Shown here piece after piece: positions 3,908-21,626 of a stretch of DNA of 21,626 nucleotides. The notes under the pieces are model-generated. The model was not told where the DNA came from and searched no databases. It worked only from the letters and a program-made list of their open reading frames with translations. Numbering within the stretch: position 1 is the stretch's first letter; each line of letters begins with the position of its first letter. Position numbers and translations under genes: made by a program. Origin of the DNA: a virus; the IMG/VR virus record IMGVR_UViG_3300005264_001131, positions 1 through 21,626 of that record; one strand, 5' to 3'.

Positions 3908-4825
3908 TTAGCTGATTTTGGGGGCAAATTTATCAGTTTTGCGGCGCAAGATTTTTTTGTCAGTCTCGACATAGATTTCTGTTGTTCTGATGTCGCTGTG
4001 GCCTAGCAGGTCGCGTAGCTCAAACGCATTGCCGCCATTGGCGGCATAGTGGGTAGCGAATGTGTGCCGCCATTTGTGGGGGCTGACGTTTACCGAAGCC
4101 GGAATGTGGGCGGCGCTCTTCCACCGGTCGGTCACTCGGTTGATAGCGTTGGCGCTGAGTCGACGGTACGGCGGACACACTCCGTTGCCTTTTGTGGAAA
4201 CGAATAGGGCGGGGTCTGATGTTTCAGGGCGGGCGTATAGCCAGGTCTGAACAGCGTCAAGCGCAGCGTTGTCTGGAAAGCCGTCTCGCTCATCGTCATA
4301 TTTGCCCACGATGCGCATTTCCTTATCTATCAGATCGATGTCTACCTGGTTGAGGTTGCAAATTTCTTCCCGTCGTAGGCCGGTAGAGATGAGCAGGCGC
4401 ATAATGGCGGCGTCCCTAATGGAGATGATGGTGGTCTCATTCTCACAGGCCTCGATCATTCGCTGGATGTAGTGCAGGGGAATGGTGCGTTTTTTCCGCT
4501 TAGGTCTGCGGGGGCGCTTTAGTCCGGCCTCTGCGAAGACATTGATGGTGGTGTGATGCTCGTCTTTGAACCATCGGAACAACACGCCAATGCTGGTGTG
4601 GTTGCCGTTGCGGGTTGACCAACTGCGTTTCAACTTCTTTTGACTGGCAAAGAATCGTTTGATATGACGGATATTAATGTCGGCGGCAACGGTGATTGCT
4701 TCCCCTTCGAGGTAGGCAAAAAACGGCCGTAGGCGGCGGCTATACCAAGCCTCCGTTTCCGGCTCCCAATCACCGCTTTGGTCGGCTAAAAAATTTTCCA
4801 ATATACTTTTCCAGTAGTTGTTCAA
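3908..4825 (-). CDS. int: Tyrosine recombinase (phage integrase)
   Basis: 305 residues. The start is a TTG at 4825, supported by AAAGGAGG 7 bases upstream and by the lack of an ATG near it. An N-terminal SAM-like core-binding domain (about 1-105) is followed by a catalytic domain with every expected residue: R151 in TGLRREE, K175 in the VGKYDD hairpin, H250 and R253 in HKWRHTFA, H276 in LLGHSDI and the nucleophile Y285 in TEIYVE. The length suits an XerC/D-like integrase lacking the N-terminal arm-binding domain of lambda Int. It would integrate and excise the circular genome at attP. It converges with the HTH gene at 3370 and is divergent from the replication initiator. Confidence 0.95.
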   Translation of the reverse strand: MNNYWKSILENFLADQSGDWEPETEAWYSRRLRPFFAYLEGEAITVAADINIRHIKRFFASQKKLKRSWSTRNGNHTSIGVLFRWFKDEHHTTINVFAEAGLKRPRRPKRKKRTIPLHYIQRMIEACENETTIISIRDAAIMRLLISTGLRREEICNLNQVDIDLIDKEMRIVGKYDDERDGFPDNAALDAVQTWLYARPETSDPALFVSTKGNGVCPPYRRLSANAINRVTDRWKSAAHIPASVNVSPHKWRHTFATHYAANGGNAFELRDLLGHSDIRTTEIYVETDKKILRRKTDKFAPKIS

Positions 4826-4956: not shown

Positions 4957-4985
4957 ATTATATCATATTTATAGGAGTTTTTCAA
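4957..4985 (-). promoter_or_regulatory. Leftward promoter for integrase
   Basis: On the minus strand TTGAAA (4980-4985), a 17-bp spacer and TATAAT (4957-4962) are a near-consensus promoter. The -35 box overlaps the first base of the initiator gene's ATG and the spacer covers that gene's ribosome site, so integrase transcription and initiator expression may interfere with each other. Confidence 0.65.
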
Positions 4986-5755
4986 TGGAGCAAATGGAGC
5001 AGTGGCCCGAAATTCTTAAAACCCTAGCCGGTCAGATGACCAAATCTACATTCGACACCTTGCTCAATGGCACAACGGCCAGTGTAGACGGCGATATCCT
5101 TACCGTCCACGTCAAAAATGGTTATGCCAAAGACTGGGTTGAGAAGCGGCTACAGAAACCGATTATCCGGACCGTCGCTGCCTTCACCAGCCAGACCTAT
5201 ACTATTGCCGCCCAGGTTGGCGGCAACGGCAACGGCAACGGCGCGAAACCTGCCCCGCTGAAGGTGGAGCCGGGTCAGTTTGCTACGGAGTTGGTTTATA
5301 CCGATCCGCGACAGCAGACGATTACGACCAGTGTATATGCCATCCGATTCTGGCAGCCAGTATTAACGCCGCCTGTATTCGGGTTATGGATTACACTGCG
5401 GGGCTTTGCTTGGGATGGGCCGGGCAAGGAGGTTTATCCCTCAATCCAACTGTTGGCCGATATATGCGCCGGCGGCAACCGCCATAAAGTCATCGGTCGA
5501 GCGGAGAGAAAGGACCGGAAGGCGTTCGACGGCTATTTGAAGCTTCTACAGAAGTTTCAAATTGTTTCTGTTCGCACCGAAGGGAGAAATCACGAACGTG
5601 CTTATTTTTTCAGAGTTCTGGAGCATCTCCCTATCCTGACTCCTGTTCAGGCGAGTTGGTTGCCCGACAACGTCGAGGAAGCGCACAAGCGTTGGCTGCG
5701 CCGCCATCAATTAGGACACGAGCAGTGGAAACAACTCACTATGTCCCGGACATAG
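4985..5755 (+). CDS. Replication initiator with DnaA domain I and C-terminal winged-helix region
   Basis: 256 residues; the ATG at 4985 has TAGGAG 9 bases upstream. Residues 7-77 match DnaA domain I: WPEILKTLAGQMTKSTFDTL, then DGDILTVHVKNGYAKDWVEK, then RLQKPI. In DnaA this domain contacts the DnaB helicase, DiaA-type factors and itself; it has no ATPase function. An Asn/Gly linker (79-87) leads to a second region (about 110-215) with an HTH-like segment (SIQLLADI, then GYLKLLQKFQIVSVRTEG) like plasmid and phage initiators. No AAA+ Walker motifs or DnaA domain IV are seen. The stop codon lies inside the first of eight palindromic iterons just downstream, the likely binding target. I infer iteron binding by the C-terminal region and helicase recruitment by domain I. 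Confidence 0.75.
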   Translation: MEQMEQWPEILKTLAGQMTKSTFDTLLNGTTASVDGDILTVHVKNGYAKDWVEKRLQKPIIRTVAAFTSQTYTIAAQVGGNGNGNGAKPAPLKVEPGQFATELVYTDPRQQTITTSVYAIRFWQPVLTPPVFGLWITLRGFAWDGPGKEVYPSIQLLADICAGGNRHKVIGRAERKDRKAFDGYLKLLQKFQIVSVRTEGRNHERAYFFRVLEHLPILTPVQASWLPDNVEEAHKRWLRRHQLGHEQWKQLTMSRT

Positions 5756-5907
5756 GGGGTATGTCCTGGACACAGGGGGGCTATGTCCCTGACATAGGGG
5801 CTATGTCCCGGACACAGGGTTAAGGTTATGTCCTGGACATAGGAGGGTTATGTCCTGGACACAGGAGGGTTATGTCCCGGACACAGGAGGGTTATGTCCC
5901 GGACACA
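5740..5907. repeat. Iteron array: eight TATGTCCYGGACAYA units, candidate replication origin
   Basis: Eight copies of a 15-bp palindromic unit (TATGTCC, one variable base, GGACA then TA or CA) start at 5740, 5760, 5782, 5802, 5827, 5849, 5871 and 5893. The last five are spaced exactly 22 bp apart, about two helical turns. Spacers are G-rich (AGGAGGGT). Unit 3 has T for G in the right half (CCCTGACA). The array lies directly after the initiator gene and before an AT-rich stretch, the standard layout of an iteron origin. Confidence 0.85.
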
Positions 5908-5970
5908 GCTAATATAAAGACTATATTAATACTATCCGTTATTGAAGAGAATTTGGTTTTTAAAAATAAG
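5908..5970. other. AT-rich stretch beside the iterons, candidate unwinding element
   Basis: Bases 5908-5970 are strongly AT-rich (for example AATATAAAGACTATATTAAT and TTTTTAAAAATAAG) compared with the GC-balanced neighbours. Together with the iterons this fits the duplex-unwinding part of an origin. The same stretch holds the promoter-like TTGAAG/AATAAG pair. Confidence 0.5.
5942..5970 (+). promoter_or_regulatory. Possible promoter for the early genes after the origin
   Basis: TTGAAG (5942-5947), a 17-bp spacer and AATAAG (5965-5970) are a moderate match to sigma70 consensus. The SOS-box-like dyad follows within 2 bases, over the predicted start. The first frame downstream with a ribosome site starts at 6084. 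Confidence 0.4.
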
Positions 5971-5971
5971 T

Positions 5972-5983
5972 GAACGTCTGTTC
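5972..5983. promoter_or_regulatory. SOS-box-like dyad GAAC-GTCT-GTTC
   Basis: GAAC, 4 bases, GTTC matches the core of the Gram-positive-type LexA/DinR box (CGAAC-N4-GTTCG). It lies just after a promoter-like element. TCTGTTCGTAAG is present as an overlapping direct repeat (5977-6000), followed by an inverted GCGAACAG (6001-6008), so more than one dimer might bind. Confidence 0.5.
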
Positions 5984-6017
5984 GTAAGTCTGTTCGTAAG
6001 CGCGAACAGCAATGGAA

Positions 6018-6999: not shown

Positions 7000-7203
7000 T
7001 AATGGGCCTCCTCACCTTCGCCACAAAACCAATCGAAGACACCCCCCCGGCGTAGCCAAAAACCTCCCCCCCCAGCGGGGGGGAGAAATCACCTCCTACC
7101 AACACCCCCTTTACCCAAAAGCAACTTCAGCAGGGCGGCATATAACAACGGCTTGCACCTGGAGAGTGGTTAGAGCCAGAGGTCAGCGAGGCTAACCATT
7201 ACC
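7000..7203. other. Non-coding gap upstream of the late promoter
   Basis: Only a 17-codon frame (ATG at 7004) with a weak GAGAG site is seen. The gap contains CTCCCCCC/GGGGGGAG around AGC (7064-7085), an extreme GC hairpin, and GGTTAGAGCC with GGCTAACC near 7167-7197. These could end the early transcript. Confidence 0.4.
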
Positions 7204-7232
7204 TTGCTAAATAAATCAACATCTGCTACACT
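7204..7232 (+). promoter_or_regulatory. Candidate late promoter
   Basis: TTGCTA (7204-7209), a 17-bp spacer and TACACT (7227-7232) give a fair sigma70 match. It is the nearest promoter to the terminase and capsid genes and is followed at once by an SOS-box-like dyad and a terminator-like hairpin. Confidence 0.5.
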
Positions 7233-7237
7233 ACCAG

Positions 7238-7249
7238 GAACAACTGTTC
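7238..7249. promoter_or_regulatory. SOS-box-like dyad GAAC-AACT-GTTC at the late promoter
   Basis: GAAC, 4 bases, GTTC, with G after it, sits at the predicted start of the candidate late promoter. It matches the Gram-positive-type LexA core and has the same position relative to the -10 box as the site at 5972-5983. Confidence 0.5.
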
Positions 7250-7287
7250 GGACGGCGGTAGCGTCGTCCGGCGCGAGGCTTTTTTTA
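7250..7287 (+). terminator. Terminator-like hairpin in the late leader
   Basis: GGACGGCG (7250-7257) pairs with CGTCGTCC (7262-7269), with one G-U pair, around GTAG. Eight Ts follow at 7280-7287 after a 10-base gap, longer than usual. It would end a transcript of about 50 bases from the 7204 promoter, so late expression may need antitermination. Alternatively it ends the early operon. Confidence 0.45.
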
Positions 7288-7382
7288 TGCACGGAAAGAG
7301 ATTGTTTTGAGAGATCTGATCAGCGTTTTAGTTTTGATTGTTGCTGTGTTTACTTATTGGGTATTCTGGGAGCTTGCCAGTC

Positions 7383-7832
7383 GTGCCATCGAATATCAAT
7401 TCTCGCCAATGCTCTGCGACCAAAGCCGACGGTCAGGCGTGTAAGGCGTGGGCTATCAAAGGCATCGACCCGCCGCTCTGCGCCGCTCACAGTGGAAAGC
7501 CGGGGGGCGCGCCGCCCGGCAATTCCAACCGCCAAACTCACGGTTTTTACGCCCAACCTGTCAAAGAACTCAGCACCATCGAGGATATTCTAGCTGATGC
7601 GATGGCTAAACAAGCGCAACTCTCCGCTTTCATCCAGGAAGAAGCGTCAACCGGCGACAGTGATATTGAGACAATGGCTAAGTTGCTGGCCTTGCACGGG
7701 CAAAACGCGAGCCGATTAGGTAGACTACTGCGGGATCAACGCGCTCTATCCGGTAAATCTGCTGACGGCTTACTTGACGCTATCGGGGCGGCATTGGATG
7801 AGATAAGCACTGAACTCAACATTAATGTCTGA
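7383..7832 (+). CDS. terS: Putative terminase small subunit
   Basis: 149 residues from a GTG at 7383 with TGGGAG about 10 bases upstream; a TTG at 7338 would add 15 hydrophobic residues and is less likely. The N-terminus carries CSATKADGQACKAWA, then PPLCAAHSGK and GAPPGNSNRQTHGFY. This Cys/His cluster with the GAPxGNxNxxxHGFY stretch is typical of small terminase-type proteins and their relatives next to terL genes. The C-terminal half (about 65-149) is helical, as expected for the oligomerising and TerL-contacting part. In packaging it would recognise phage DNA and hand it to TerL. It is separated from terL only by a 71-codon membrane-peptide gene. Confidence 0.65.
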   Translation: MPSNINSRQCSATKADGQACKAWAIKGIDPPLCAAHSGKPGGAPPGNSNRQTHGFYAQPVKELSTIEDILADAMAKQAQLSAFIQEEASTGDSDIETMAKLLALHGQNASRLGRLLRDQRALSGKSADGLLDAIGAALDEISTELNINV

Positions 7833-8050: not shown

Positions 8051-9576
8051 TTCACAAATTAAAGAAGATACTCCTCTCTATCAAGCTCTTTTCGCACGTT
8101 ATCACTGAGTTACCTTTGAGGGATTATCAGACGGGACCGGCTAACGCCTTGATTGATAGCGTACTCAGTCAAAAAGGAATTGAGTATCTATGGGTTTTCC
8201 CTCGACAGTCTGGCAAAGATGAAGCTGTAGCTCAAACTCTCGCCTTTCTTTTGACGCTCTTTCATCGTGTCGAGGCGTCAATGATTCACGTGTATCCTAC
8301 CTTTCAACAAACTTCAACCGGTGTGATGCGTCTTGAAAATCGCCTTGAAAATAAACTTACGTCCGGACAAGCCTGGAGTAAATCAAAACCTACCCGGCGC
8401 GGTCTTGGCCTGGCTCAGTGCGCTTTCTTCAGCGCGCACCCTCAAGCCAAATCTGAGGGCGCGACGGCAAATCTTTTACTTATTATCAATGAGGTTCAGG
8501 ATTGCGATGAGGCAATTATTGATCGCCGTTTTACGCCGATGAGAGCAAGCGCCAATGCTACGGCTCTGTATGTGGGAACTGTGCGTACTACGGCCGATTA
8601 TCTTTGGCGCATCAAGAGTCGGCTTGAGAAACTTGAGGCCATAGACGGAATCAAGCGGGTTTTTATTACCACTGCCGACCAGGTAGGCGTGGAAAATCCT
8701 GCTTATGCACAGTTTGTCCACAATCAGATACAACTCAAGGGGCGGCAGCATCCGGCTATTAGGACCGAGTTTTTTAACGAACCGGTAGACGTAGCCGCCG
8801 GATTATTCCCAAAAAGACGCCTGGCTCTGATGCGTGGTTCTCATCCGCGCCAACGCCAGCCGATTCCGGGTCAGATTGCCATTATCTTGATAGATGTCGG
8901 CGGCCAGGACGAGGCGGCAACTCATACCTTTGCCGATCTGTCTAATCCTGGCCGGGACTACACTGTAGCTACTGTGGTCTCTGCTATTCCCCAAGACGAG
9001 GGAAGCCCTTACTACCATGCCCTTGATCTATTCCTTGATCACGGCTCAAGACATTTTCAAGACGTACCTGGTCAACCTTCTCTGTTCAAGAGACTTTGCG
9101 CATACATAGAACACTGGCAACCTGCGGCCATAATCTGTGACAGCACCGGCGTAGGGCAAGGCATTACCGACGCGCTGATTGAGGAACATCCTGAACACGT
9201 CTTTGGCTTCGATTTCGCTAAATCGCACGGTAAGGCGCGGTTGGGTAATGATTTTCTGGCTTTGGTGGAGACGGGGCGGTTTAAATATTTTGCTGAAGAA
9301 CTGGATGGATCGGATGCCTGGTGGTTTTTTACGCAGGCAGAGCATTGCGGTTACGAGTTGGCTGAGGGGGTTGCTATCGAGCGCGGTTTGCGTTGGGAAG
9401 TGAATCCTGCCGCCAAGATTGTTGTCAATGGCGAATCGGTTTTTGTTCACGATGACCGGTTGCTGTCTGCTGCGCTCATTGCCGAAGCTGACCGCCTGCA
9501 CCGTGAGGGTCATTTATTCTTCAGTACCGGTCAATCAGCCGTTATCAGACAGGAGCGTCGTGTAGATGAATGGTAA
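8047..9576 (+). CDS. terL: Terminase large subunit (packaging ATPase/nuclease)
   Basis: 509 residues. The ATPase domain has an adenine-binding YQ near residue 27, a Walker A variant FPRQSGKDE (51-59), and Walker B LLLIINE (143-149) where the usual Asp before the catalytic Glu is Asn (N148, E149), followed by a YVGTVRTT coupling motif (175-182). The nuclease domain has an RNase H-like set of acids: D283 in ILIDVGGQDE, D365 in IICDSTGVGQG and D469/D470 in HDDRLLSAAL. It pumps DNA into the procapsid through the portal and cuts the concatemer. The start overlaps the upstream gene by 4 bases and the end overlaps the LexA-like gene by 11. Confidence 0.95.
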   Translation: MIHKLKKILLSIKLFSHVITELPLRDYQTGPANALIDSVLSQKGIEYLWVFPRQSGKDEAVAQTLAFLLTLFHRVEASMIHVYPTFQQTSTGVMRLENRLENKLTSGQAWSKSKPTRRGLGLAQCAFFSAHPQAKSEGATANLLLIINEVQDCDEAIIDRRFTPMRASANATALYVGTVRTTADYLWRIKSRLEKLEAIDGIKRVFITTADQVGVENPAYAQFVHNQIQLKGRQHPAIRTEFFNEPVDVAAGLFPKRRLALMRGSHPRQRQPIPGQIAIILIDVGGQDEAATHTFADLSNPGRDYTVATVVSAIPQDEGSPYYHALDLFLDHGSRHFQDVPGQPSLFKRLCAYIEHWQPAAIICDSTGVGQGITDALIEEHPEHVFGFDFAKSHGKARLGNDFLALVETGRFKYFAEELDGSDAWWFFTQAEHCGYELAEGVAIERGLRWEVNPAAKIVVNGESVFVHDDRLLSAALIAEADRLHREGHLFFSTGQSAVIRQERRVDEW

Positions 9577-9778
9577 AGCCATCGAAACCCTGGACTTTAT
9601 CAAAACATTTTTCCGGGAAAACGGCTACTCGCCTACCTATCGTGAAATAGGTCAGGCTATCCATATTAACAGTACCAGTTATGTCAATCGCTTATTGTTT
9701 CAATTGGAGGATGCTCATCTGATTACCCGTAAGCCGGGTGTGACGAGGAGTATTGTGTTGATATGCCCCGAAGAATAA
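9566..9778 (+). CDS. LexA-like DNA-binding domain without peptidase domain
   Basis: 70 residues. The whole protein matches the N-terminal winged HTH of LexA: ETLDFIKTFFRENGYSPTYR (helix 1 and the GYSPT turn), EIGQAIHINSTSYVNRLLFQ (helix-turn-helix with recognition helix) and LEDAHLITRKPGVTRSIVL (wing). The C-terminal autopeptidase (Ala-Gly cleavage site, Ser/Lys dyad) is absent, so RecA cannot trigger self-cleavage. It could occupy LexA boxes constitutively. Two GAAC-N4-GTTC sites occur in this genome (5972, 7238), both at promoter-like elements. It overlaps terL by 11 bases and the MuF gene by 16, so it is made with the late genes. Confidence 0.8.
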   Translation: MNGKAIETLDFIKTFFRENGYSPTYREIGQAIHINSTSYVNRLLFQLEDAHLITRKPGVTRSIVLICPEE

Positions 9779-9963
9779 TCACCTACGAGATATTTACTAC
9801 TATTGGCGATGATCGGACGTGTGAATTATGTTCGTCTCATAATGGTAGGGTTTTCAAAAAAGGGGAGGGGCCACAACCTCCGTTGCATTGGGGCTGTCGC
9901 TGCACCAGGACATACCATCATACAGTAATTGAGGACAAGGATAGTAATGAACCCCGAAACTAA
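9763..9963 (+). CDS. Free-standing MuF/gp7-type head morphogenesis signature protein
   Basis: 66 residues. The pattern TIGDDRTCELC (C20, C23), then PPLHWGCRCT (H42, C45, C47) is the conserved C-terminal signature of Mu gpF/SPP1 gp7 minor head proteins, a small Cys/His zinc-type module. In known phages it usually ends a protein of about 250-400 residues; here it stands alone, with no helical N-terminal domain. The gene overlaps both neighbours (the LexA-like gene by 16 bases, portal by 17). It probably still acts in head assembly or is carried in with the portal, as MuF proteins are. A remnant of a larger gene is the alternative. Confidence 0.75.
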   Translation: MPRRIITYEIFTTIGDDRTCELCSSHNGRVFKKGEGPQPPLHWGCRCTRTYHHTVIEDKDSNEPRN

Positions 9964-11275
9964 TTGGCTTACGGTAGTTACAAGTTTTTTTGCCAGTTTT
10001 TGGCGGCGCGTTGCTTTGGCTGTTCGCTCTCAGGTTAGGGATGATTCTGGTTGGGAGACAATTAGCCGTGCCGGTACTGGTCCTCAAGACCGTGATTGGC
10101 ATGAGAAGTTTCAGGATTTGGAAGACGCGCTTGAAGCCTGGCGCAAGAATTTCCTTATCCGGCAGGTTGTTCGCCTGACTACTGCGTATGTTGTCGGCGA
10201 TGGCTTTGAGGTTAGGGCAACTCATTTTTGGATTATGTCTTTTGTTAGACGGTTTTGGAACCATGAGAAGAATCACATTGATGACCGTCTGCCCGCTTGG
10301 TGTGATGAACTCACCCGCTCCGGGGAGTTGTTCATAGTGCTGTTTACGAACCCCATAGATGGAATGAGTTATGTGCGCGAAATCCCTGCATCTTCGATTA
10401 CTCGCGTGATCACTGACGACAATGACTATGAGACTGAGATTGGCTTTGAGGAGCAGGTGATTAACCAGGTTGAAACCCGCGCTTGGCGTAGCAAACACAC
10501 CGCTATTAATGGCGAACCGATTCTACTACACTACAAAATAAATCGAGTAATAGGAGCTACGCGGGGCGAGTCTGATGTCTCTCCGATACTCCCTTGGGCC
10601 AAGCGATATAGTAAATGGTTGCGTGGGCGCGTTGAGTTAAACGATCTGCGGCGGAAGATGTCTGCTGTTGTCATCACTGTAGCCGACAATCTGGTCAAGA
10701 AAAAAGAAGCGGATTACAGAGAGAACCCACCGACTGACGGGGCTGTGGTGGTTAAGGGTCGGGGGGAGAATATTGAATTTCCTTCGGCCAATATTCGCGG
10801 TATAGATGCGTCTCCCGATGGTAGGGCTATACGCCTGGCTATTGCTGCAGGCGGCAATATTCCCTTGCATTTTCTGGGTGAAGGCTCAAGCGCAACGCAA
10901 TCTACCGCGTCTGAAATGGGTGACCCTACTCACCGGCATTATCGGATGCGCCAGAAAGATTTTATTGCCATCCTCAAGGACGTGATTAAGCAGGCTTACC
11001 GACGCAAGCTTGCTTTCGTTGGAGGGCGTGAACCTGCTGATTATGGATTAACTATCGACGCGCCCGACATTAGCCGCGCCGATAATACAGAATTGGCTAA
11101 CGCTGCCAAAACGATTGTCGAAGCATTTGCCATAATGAAGGCTGAAGGTTGGGTTGATGATGAGACGGCTATCCGGTTGAGTTTCAAATTTGCGGGTGAA
11201 ATTTTGTCTGATGAGAAAATCAAGGAGATCCTAAACAATGAGCAAAAAGAAGAAAGGTCCGACGGGCAAGAGTGA
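9947..11275 (+). CDS. Portal protein
   Basis: 442 residues from ATG 9947 with AAGGATAG just upstream; an in-frame TTG at 9929 is less likely. The sequence fits the SPP1/HK97-type portal family: an N-terminal helical stem region (WHEKFQDLEDALEAWRKN), then LTTAYVVGDGFEV, a conserved EIPASSITRVITDDNDYETE wing segment, a long helix at RYSKWLRGRVELNDLRRKMS and GNIPLHFLGEGSSATQSTAS near the crown. It forms the dodecameric vertex through which TerL loads DNA and to which the connector proteins attach. The gene ends with a 38-base overlap with the protease-capsid gene. Confidence 0.88.
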   Translation: MNPETNWLTVVTSFFASFWRRVALAVRSQVRDDSGWETISRAGTGPQDRDWHEKFQDLEDALEAWRKNFLIRQVVRLTTAYVVGDGFEVRATHFWIMSFVRRFWNHEKNHIDDRLPAWCDELTRSGELFIVLFTNPIDGMSYVREIPASSITRVITDDNDYETEIGFEEQVINQVETRAWRSKHTAINGEPILLHYKINRVIGATRGESDVSPILPWAKRYSKWLRGRVELNDLRRKMSAVVITVADNLVKKKEADYRENPPTDGAVVVKGRGENIEFPSANIRGIDASPDGRAIRLAIAAGGNIPLHFLGEGSSATQSTASEMGDPTHRHYRMRQKDFIAILKDVIKQAYRRKLAFVGGREPADYGLTIDAPDISRADNTELANAAKTIVEAFAIMKAEGWVDDETAIRLSFKFAGEILSDEKIKEILNNEQKEERSDGQE

Positions 11276-19808: not shown

Positions 19809-20024
19809 CTACGGCGTATTGACTGCCTCATACTCAGCAAGTAAATTACTTGGCTTGAGGCCGTATACCGTAGCCAGTTTGGTCACATCATCAAGCGACC
19901 ATCCCCTGAGTGATTGTTCTTTTTTTAGGTAGGCATCCGGGGTAATGCCTAGTCCCTGTGCGCACTGTGAAATAGTAATGCCCGCCTCAGTGCGTTTGAG
20001 GCGGGCATACTTTCCGAATTTCAT
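19809..20024 (-). CDS. Cro/C1-type (XRE) transcriptional regulator
   Basis: 71 residues, ATG 20024 with GGGAAA about 7 bases upstream. One HTH_XRE domain fills the protein: FGKYARLKRTEAGITISQCA (helices 1-2), QGLGITPDAYLKKEQSLRGW (turn and recognition helix) and SLDDVTKLATVYGLKPSNLL (helices 4-5). It has no C-terminal peptidase or dimerisation domain, so Cro-like size. It is in the operon led by the TTGACA/TATAAT promoter at 21285-21313 and may repress it by binding the paired CCGTT-N4-AACGG sites or the 25-bp palindrome. Which of these it binds cannot be told from the sequence. Confidence 0.82.
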   Translation of the reverse strand: MKFGKYARLKRTEAGITISQCAQGLGITPDAYLKKEQSLRGWSLDDVTKLATVYGLKPSNLLAEYEAVNTP

Positions 20025-21388: not shown

Positions 21389-21618
21389 CTACCTCATCGC
21401 CGCTTGAAGCCCGGCCAGAGCCGCGCCCCAGCCGTCGGTGTTGGCAAGCCTAGTTAGTTCGTTCACCCTATCGAAGGCGATTCTCCCGGCTTTGATAGCC
21501 TCGCCGGAAATTTTATAGAAGGTTTGGCGGGGGTTGAGGGTGTACGCCTTGTGGGGGTTGAGGTCTTTTTCGCGCTGCGCGGTCTCATCGAGGACGGGCG
21601 CGGTCGTGGACTTGGGAG
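21389..21618 (-). CDS. C-terminal part of the junction-spanning Cys/His protein
   Basis: The codons from 21534 down to the TAG at 21389 complete the gene that starts at 391. Bases 21535-21618 duplicate 1-84. This part encodes NPRQTFYKISGEAIKAGR and onward to AGLQAAMR. The reading frame is kept exactly through the join (537 bp total), which supports the circular map. Confidence 0.8.
21535..21618. repeat. Terminal redundancy, right copy (matches 1-84)
   Basis: An exact 84-base copy of the window start. The eight bases after it (ACTTGGGA) extend GACTTGGGA to two tandem copies, a typical assembly-end stutter, because the left copy continues with CGTCTA at this point. Confidence 0.93.
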
Positions 21619-21626
21619 ACTTGGGA

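Follow-up and report, generated by a model that had tools for sequence, protein, structure and literature searches.

The stretch of DNA analysed here, a 21,626-bp virus record that we call the window, encodes a small LexA-like protein directly behind a phage terminase and carries two palindromes resembling LexA boxes. The locus therefore raises the question of what keeps the virion genes of this phage silent, what releases them, and what the LexA-like protein would do once they are on. The reading that we favour, with a probability of about 0.6, is that of a tailed temperate Chloroflexota phage whose late promoter is controlled by host LexA and whose late operon contributes a second LexA-family regulator. 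The genes that the argument needs are as follows.

3908-4825, minus strand: tyrosine integrase (PF00589, E 4.9e-30)
4985-5755, plus strand: replication initiator with a DnaA_N domain (PF11638; phrog_26369)
5740-5908, plus strand: iteron-like array with a 22-bp unit in about 7.7 copies, directly after the DnaA_N-type replication gene
7338-7832, plus strand: first conserved gene of the late operon, 5' of the terminase, kept in L002, L005, L006, L027 and L079
8047-9576, plus strand: terminase large subunit (PF17289)
9566-9778, plus strand: mini-LexA, a stand-alone LexA DNA-binding domain of 70 residues (PF01726), overlapping the terminase stop and the next open reading frame
9763-9963, plus strand: short Mu-F-like minor head protein (PF04233; head-morphogenesis PHROGs)
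9929-11275, plus strand: portal-like protein, assigned by its place among the head genes; no Pfam match, conserved in L002-L007
11238-13226, plus strand: major capsid protein (PF25209, E 5.9e-23)

The integrase points to a temperate lifestyle. About 85 bp are common to both ends of the record (1-85 and 21535-21619), a repeat that probably reflects a circular or circularly permuted genome. The very end of the record holds a short tandem copy, GACTTGGGA twice. The 22-bp unit of the array at 5740-5908 reads TATGTCCCGGACA[TC]AGG..., each copy contains the inverted-repeat core TGTCCnGGACA, and the array probably represents the iterons of a replication origin.

Mini-LexA matches the Pfam family LexA_DNA_bind (PF01726) with an E value of 1.2e-10 and 41.5 bits, above the curated cut-off of 23.7, and matches no other family. 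The single-sequence fold was poor (pLDDT 51), and an alignment-based AlphaFold (AF2) model was used instead. This model is a three-helix winged helix-turn-helix with a pLDDT of 88, and its best PDB matches in Foldseek are LexA structures, the first being the LexA-DNA complex 3jso. The profile score and the fold together identify 9566-9778 as a LexA DNA-binding domain. The reading frame stops after the wing, leaving out the C-terminal S24 autopeptidase (no PF00717 match) and the dimerisation domain of a full LexA repressor, which agrees with the view of the initial annotation that this late-operon gene encodes the LexA winged helix only. As the gene overlaps both the 3' end of the terminase and the next start, it lies in, and is translated from, the late operon.

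Relatives of the terminase in genome assemblies come almost entirely from Chloroflexota. One of them, L079, is embedded in a chromosome of 5.35 Mb, so that stray contigs are a less likely explanation. These relatives suggest that the host of the window phage also belongs to Chloroflexota. The exact GAAC-N4-GTTC dyad is present in the promoters of all 13 top full-length host lexA genes. In a wider set, the same dyad, in the form GAAC-RNNY-GTTC, was found 5' of lexA in 27 of the 31 scorable loci, and 5 of 11 host recA genes carry it. The consensus of the host box is [AC]GAAC-RNNY-GTTC[GT]. The initial annotation depended on a host LexA motif that does not differ from the phage dyad, and the boxes of the host lexA genes indeed share it. 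These observations support the assignment of the window dyad as an operator of the host LexA type. Three Anaerolineae lexA-like genes (L124, L140 and L142) have two boxes ~30 bp apart and the recognition helix STKSLV or SSKSLV, which suggests a second LexA paralogue.

Among 249 genomes of the class Anaerolineae, mini-LexA matches best to the N-terminal parts of full-length host LexA proteins, with 45-53% identity. Its recognition helix reads NSTSYVNRLL, compared with [NS]STSVVNYNL in the host; the STS core is kept and two other positions are changed. Among the five recognition-helix positions that we take to be the DNA contacts, as in Escherichia coli LexA, two differ between mini-LexA and the host (V to Y and Y to R), and the specificity of mini-LexA may therefore have shifted.

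The regulatory features of the window, predicted from the sequence, are given below.

5972-5983, no strand: second LexA-type dyad, GAACGTCTGTTC, 3' of the replication gene and the iterons, from the dyad search
5976-6000, plus strand: extra half-sites, a 12-bp direct repeat of GTCTGTTCGTAA in two copies
5990-6009, plus strand: extra half-sites, the inverted repeat CTGTTCG-N6-CGAACAG
7204-7232, plus strand: predicted late promoter, with -35 TTGCTA at 7204-7209, a 17-nt spacer and -10 TACACT at 7227-7232
7224-7225, plus strand: TG of a TGn extended -10 of the late promoter
7238-7249, no strand: predicted LexA-type operator at the late promoter, GAACAACTGTTC, from the dyad search

The window contains GAAC-N4-GTTC exactly twice, at the two places named in the initial annotation (5972-5983 and 7238-7249), and nowhere else. 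For the plain dyad, 0.43 copies are expected by chance, and two copies would be weak evidence alone, because shuffling the window 100 times gave at least two copies in 4 cases. Both dyads have the host-type centre. For GAAC-RNNY-GTTC, with the RNNY centre taken from the host boxes and not from the window, 0.12 copies are expected and none of the 100 shuffles reaches two.

The predicted late promoter matches the consensus at 8 of 12 positions (p 0.18), which is not significant alone. The dyad at 7238 begins 5 nt after the -10 element, over the expected transcription start, and this layout equals that of stronger promoters in relatives. The -10 context TGCTACACT is also found in L225, and the window shares the exact 12-mer GAACAACTGTTC, ahead of the terminase, with L223, L225 and L232. 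Near-consensus promoters overlap the dyad in L079 (TTGACA-N17-TACAGT), L005 (TTGACG-N18-TACAAT), L067 (TTGACA-N18-TATACT) and L038 (TTGACT-N17-TATAAT), with p <= 0.007 each. L221 has two promoters 190 bp apart (4529-4562 and 4720-4749), both TTGACA-N17 with AGAAC-N4-GTTCT within the 17-nt spacer; the dyad centres there, TGCT and CTGT, are not RNNY. On all these promoters the dyad is placed where a LexA repressor would be expected to block RNA polymerase.

The placement is accompanied by enrichment. Between -1150 and -550 from the terminase, 66 de-duplicated lineages hold 12 dyads where 0.52 would be expected, the highest count in 100 dinucleotide shuffles being 3, and the terminase bodies of the same set hold 1 dyad versus 1.1 expected. 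A further 28 lineages hold 7 dyads between -1500 and -550 versus 0.37 expected, and none in the terminase bodies; this interval was widened after L221 had been seen, so the second set is not wholly blind, and 5 of the 7 sites lie within the original -1150 to -550. Of the 15 closest relatives whose upstream DNA is long enough, 10 carry the dyad. The exact dyad is missing in the other five and in most distant relatives, and LexA control is therefore not universal. We note that the domain, its position, the motif match to the host boxes, the enrichment and the conservation can all be read directly from the DNA.

These data also bear on the possibility that the palindromes arose by chance or serve some other regulator, with no connection to the small LexA-like protein. 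The 4 of 100 shuffles with two plain dyads and the 5972 site, which lies without a promoter, fit such a coincidence, but the replicated enrichment and the identical sequence at the same place in relatives do not. We consider coincidence very improbable, and strongly disfavoured for the 7238 site.

The 5972 site has a core 12-mer identical to the host lexA box of L147. No convincing sigma-70 promoter was found there under standard constraints, and no relatives of the replication gene were found in IMG/VR with which its conservation could be checked. This site matches a host box, yet without support from a convincing promoter or from conservation. The initial annotation had placed both dyads alike with respect to two promoter-like elements, and this part does not hold: the 7238 dyad follows a weak promoter and the 5972 dyad lacks a convincing one.

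In the late leader, after the LexA box and ahead of the first gene, a hairpin is followed by a T-run, both in the window (7248-7286) and in the prophage L079 (9125-9187). The hairpin may be a terminator, in which case antitermination would be possible. We do not take a leader terminator to be typical of these late promoters; hairpin and T-run are present in the window, L079, L038 and L062 and absent in most relatives.

A search of viral contigs with the single mini-LexA protein found nothing, and in a first comparison mini-LexA appeared unique to the window. This was overturned by a wider terminase scan, in which an open reading frame matching LexA_DNA_bind was found after the terminase, in the interval between terminase and portal, in L221, L224, L232 and L226. 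All carriers with upstream DNA (the window, L221, L226 and L232) have the dyad, and most dyad-bearing relatives have no detectable mini-LexA. With a stand-alone LexA domain behind the terminase in four relatives, the pair of dyad and mini-LexA therefore recurs patchily; on these sequences, mini-LexA is a recurrent but patchy component of the late operon in related phages.

The same patchiness bears on a switch made by the phage alone, in which the dyads are operators of mini-LexA only and host LexA is uninvolved. Gene and site lie in one operon, and the protein is LexA-derived with the STS core kept, as such a switch would have it. The dyad, however, equals the boxes of host lexA down to the RNNY centre, and most box-bearing relatives have no detectable mini-LexA to occupy it, which makes this alternative quite improbable.

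Beyond these relatives, a LexA profile retrieved 45 viral loci, most of which encode a stand-alone LexA domain of ~60-150 residues. Such domains are common in viral contigs, and mini-LexA by itself is therefore ordinary. Most of these loci have no LexA-type dyad in the flank examined. In two viral contigs from other hosts (L157 and L158), GAAC-RNNY-GTTC lies ~95 bp 5' of their own stand-alone LexA match, which suggests SOS regulation or self-regulation. Matches with LexA labelled as Listeria phage were set aside as resembling host lexA, and none of the other window genes resembled three short LexA-like frames from Anaerolineae genomes (L216-L218).

Based on these observations, we propose that host LexA would directly repress the late promoter for packaging and head genes by occupying GAACAACTGTTC at the start of transcription, and that upon DNA damage RecA would trigger self-cleavage of LexA and release the virion operon. 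We regard direct repression by host LexA and its release by DNA damage as highly likely. With a host SOS operator on the promoter of the virion genes and mini-LexA in the same operon, DNA damage probably wakes the phage directly. The steps of binding, cleavage and transcription are all inferred.

Mini-LexA would appear only after the late operon has been switched on and would not be cleavable via RecA. It could damp the LexA-type promoters of the phage late in infection, act on host SOS promoters, or activate transcription. We take it to be a second LexA-family regulator of the same or related sites, and feedback on the LexA-type sites of the phage is its likeliest role, which we hold at about even odds. 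Repression is slightly preferred to activation as the sign of this feedback, given that the host's STS core is retained in the recognition helix and that the gene sits behind the box that it may bind.

The N-terminal domain of LexA is expected to bind DNA more weakly than LexA when the dimerisation domain is missing. This speaks against a role directed at the host, in which mini-LexA would block host SOS promoters (for division arrest, repair or induction of rival prophages) and the phage promoters would see host LexA alone. The motif shared with the host boxes would allow such a role, and the protein gp7 of the Bacillus thuringiensis phage GIL01 is a precedent for a phage protein that alters the cellular SOS response (PMC4551915). 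Overall, we consider it improbable.

Activation has a precedent in the same phage, GIL01, whose truncated LexA homologue gp6 uses a palindrome of its own at -43.5 to activate P3, the late promoter (PMC6182141). By analogy, host LexA would repress the late promoter of the window and mini-LexA would activate it from a different site near -35, with positive feedback through the late operon. An inverted repeat, GGTTAGAGCC-N-GGCTAACC, lies immediately 5' of the late -35 element (~7169-7198), and the two changed positions of the recognition helix would suit a separate site. On the other hand, gp6 is an early gene and mini-LexA a late-operon gene, and among the relatives bearing mini-LexA the LexA dyad is the only common site identified. 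We regard activation as unlikely, though it is the strongest of the alternatives to repressive feedback on the LexA-type sites.

In support of the favoured reading, no S24-type (CI-like) repressor was found by PF00717 in the window and 14 relatives (15 records, several relatives being fragments), and a CI-type system, with a phage-encoded repressor that joins a helix-turn-helix to S24, was not detected in this set. A small XRE-type helix-turn-helix protein of 71 residues without a peptidase is encoded at 19809-20024 on the minus strand. It could be a phage repressor or a Cro-like protein, and as such counts against control by LexA only.

The initial annotation knew of no standard phage with such a layout, and GIL01, a Betatectivirus, corrects this: host LexA together with gp7 represses its early promoter P1 and its late promoter P3 (PMC6182141, PMC4551915), and gp6 is encoded in addition. 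Both phages have a box of the host LexA type at the late promoter, that of the window being predicted from motif identity and conservation. GIL01 has host LexA boxes on the replication side too, where the window offers the 5972 dyad as a candidate. Both also encode a truncated LexA homologue with the DNA-binding domain only, and a classical phage repressor is not required in GIL01 nor, on the favoured reading, in the window phage. The differences are equally clear. GIL01 is a tail-less tectivirus of Bacillus with a linear, protein-capped genome, whereas the window phage, known from its genes, has tailed-phage packaging genes and an integrase, and its relatives are found in Chloroflexota. Expression of GIL01 gp6 goes with the early genes, whereas mini-LexA is a late-operon gene following the terminase; gp6 uses a palindrome of its own, and the target site of mini-LexA probably differs. 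Activation by gp6 is also opposite in sign to the renewed silencing by mini-LexA that the initial annotation had guessed. The window phage therefore resembles the GIL01 switch in outline, and we do not claim membership in that system. Chromosomal Anaerolineae LexA, of the S24 family, shares with mini-LexA the winged helix and the STS core and has the operator GAAC-RNNY-GTTC, whereas mini-LexA lacks the cleavage site, the S24 peptidase and the dimerisation domain. In size and domain, mini-LexA is like the stand-alone LexA-like phage proteins of PHROG 3502, 24920 and 362.

What is new here is a conserved, predicted LexA operator at the late promoters of Chloroflexota phages and a mini-LexA that recurs beside the terminase. 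As a tentative generalisation, host LexA may replace the CI-type repressor in a lineage of tailed Chloroflexota phages, with a captured, peptidase-less LexA behind the terminase that works on the same boxes as an uncleavable counter-regulator, a design arrived at independently of GIL01. Were this so, a whole branch of environmental tailed phages would undergo SOS induction through direct LexA control of the virion operon with no phage repressor as intermediary, and GIL01 would no longer be an isolated curiosity.
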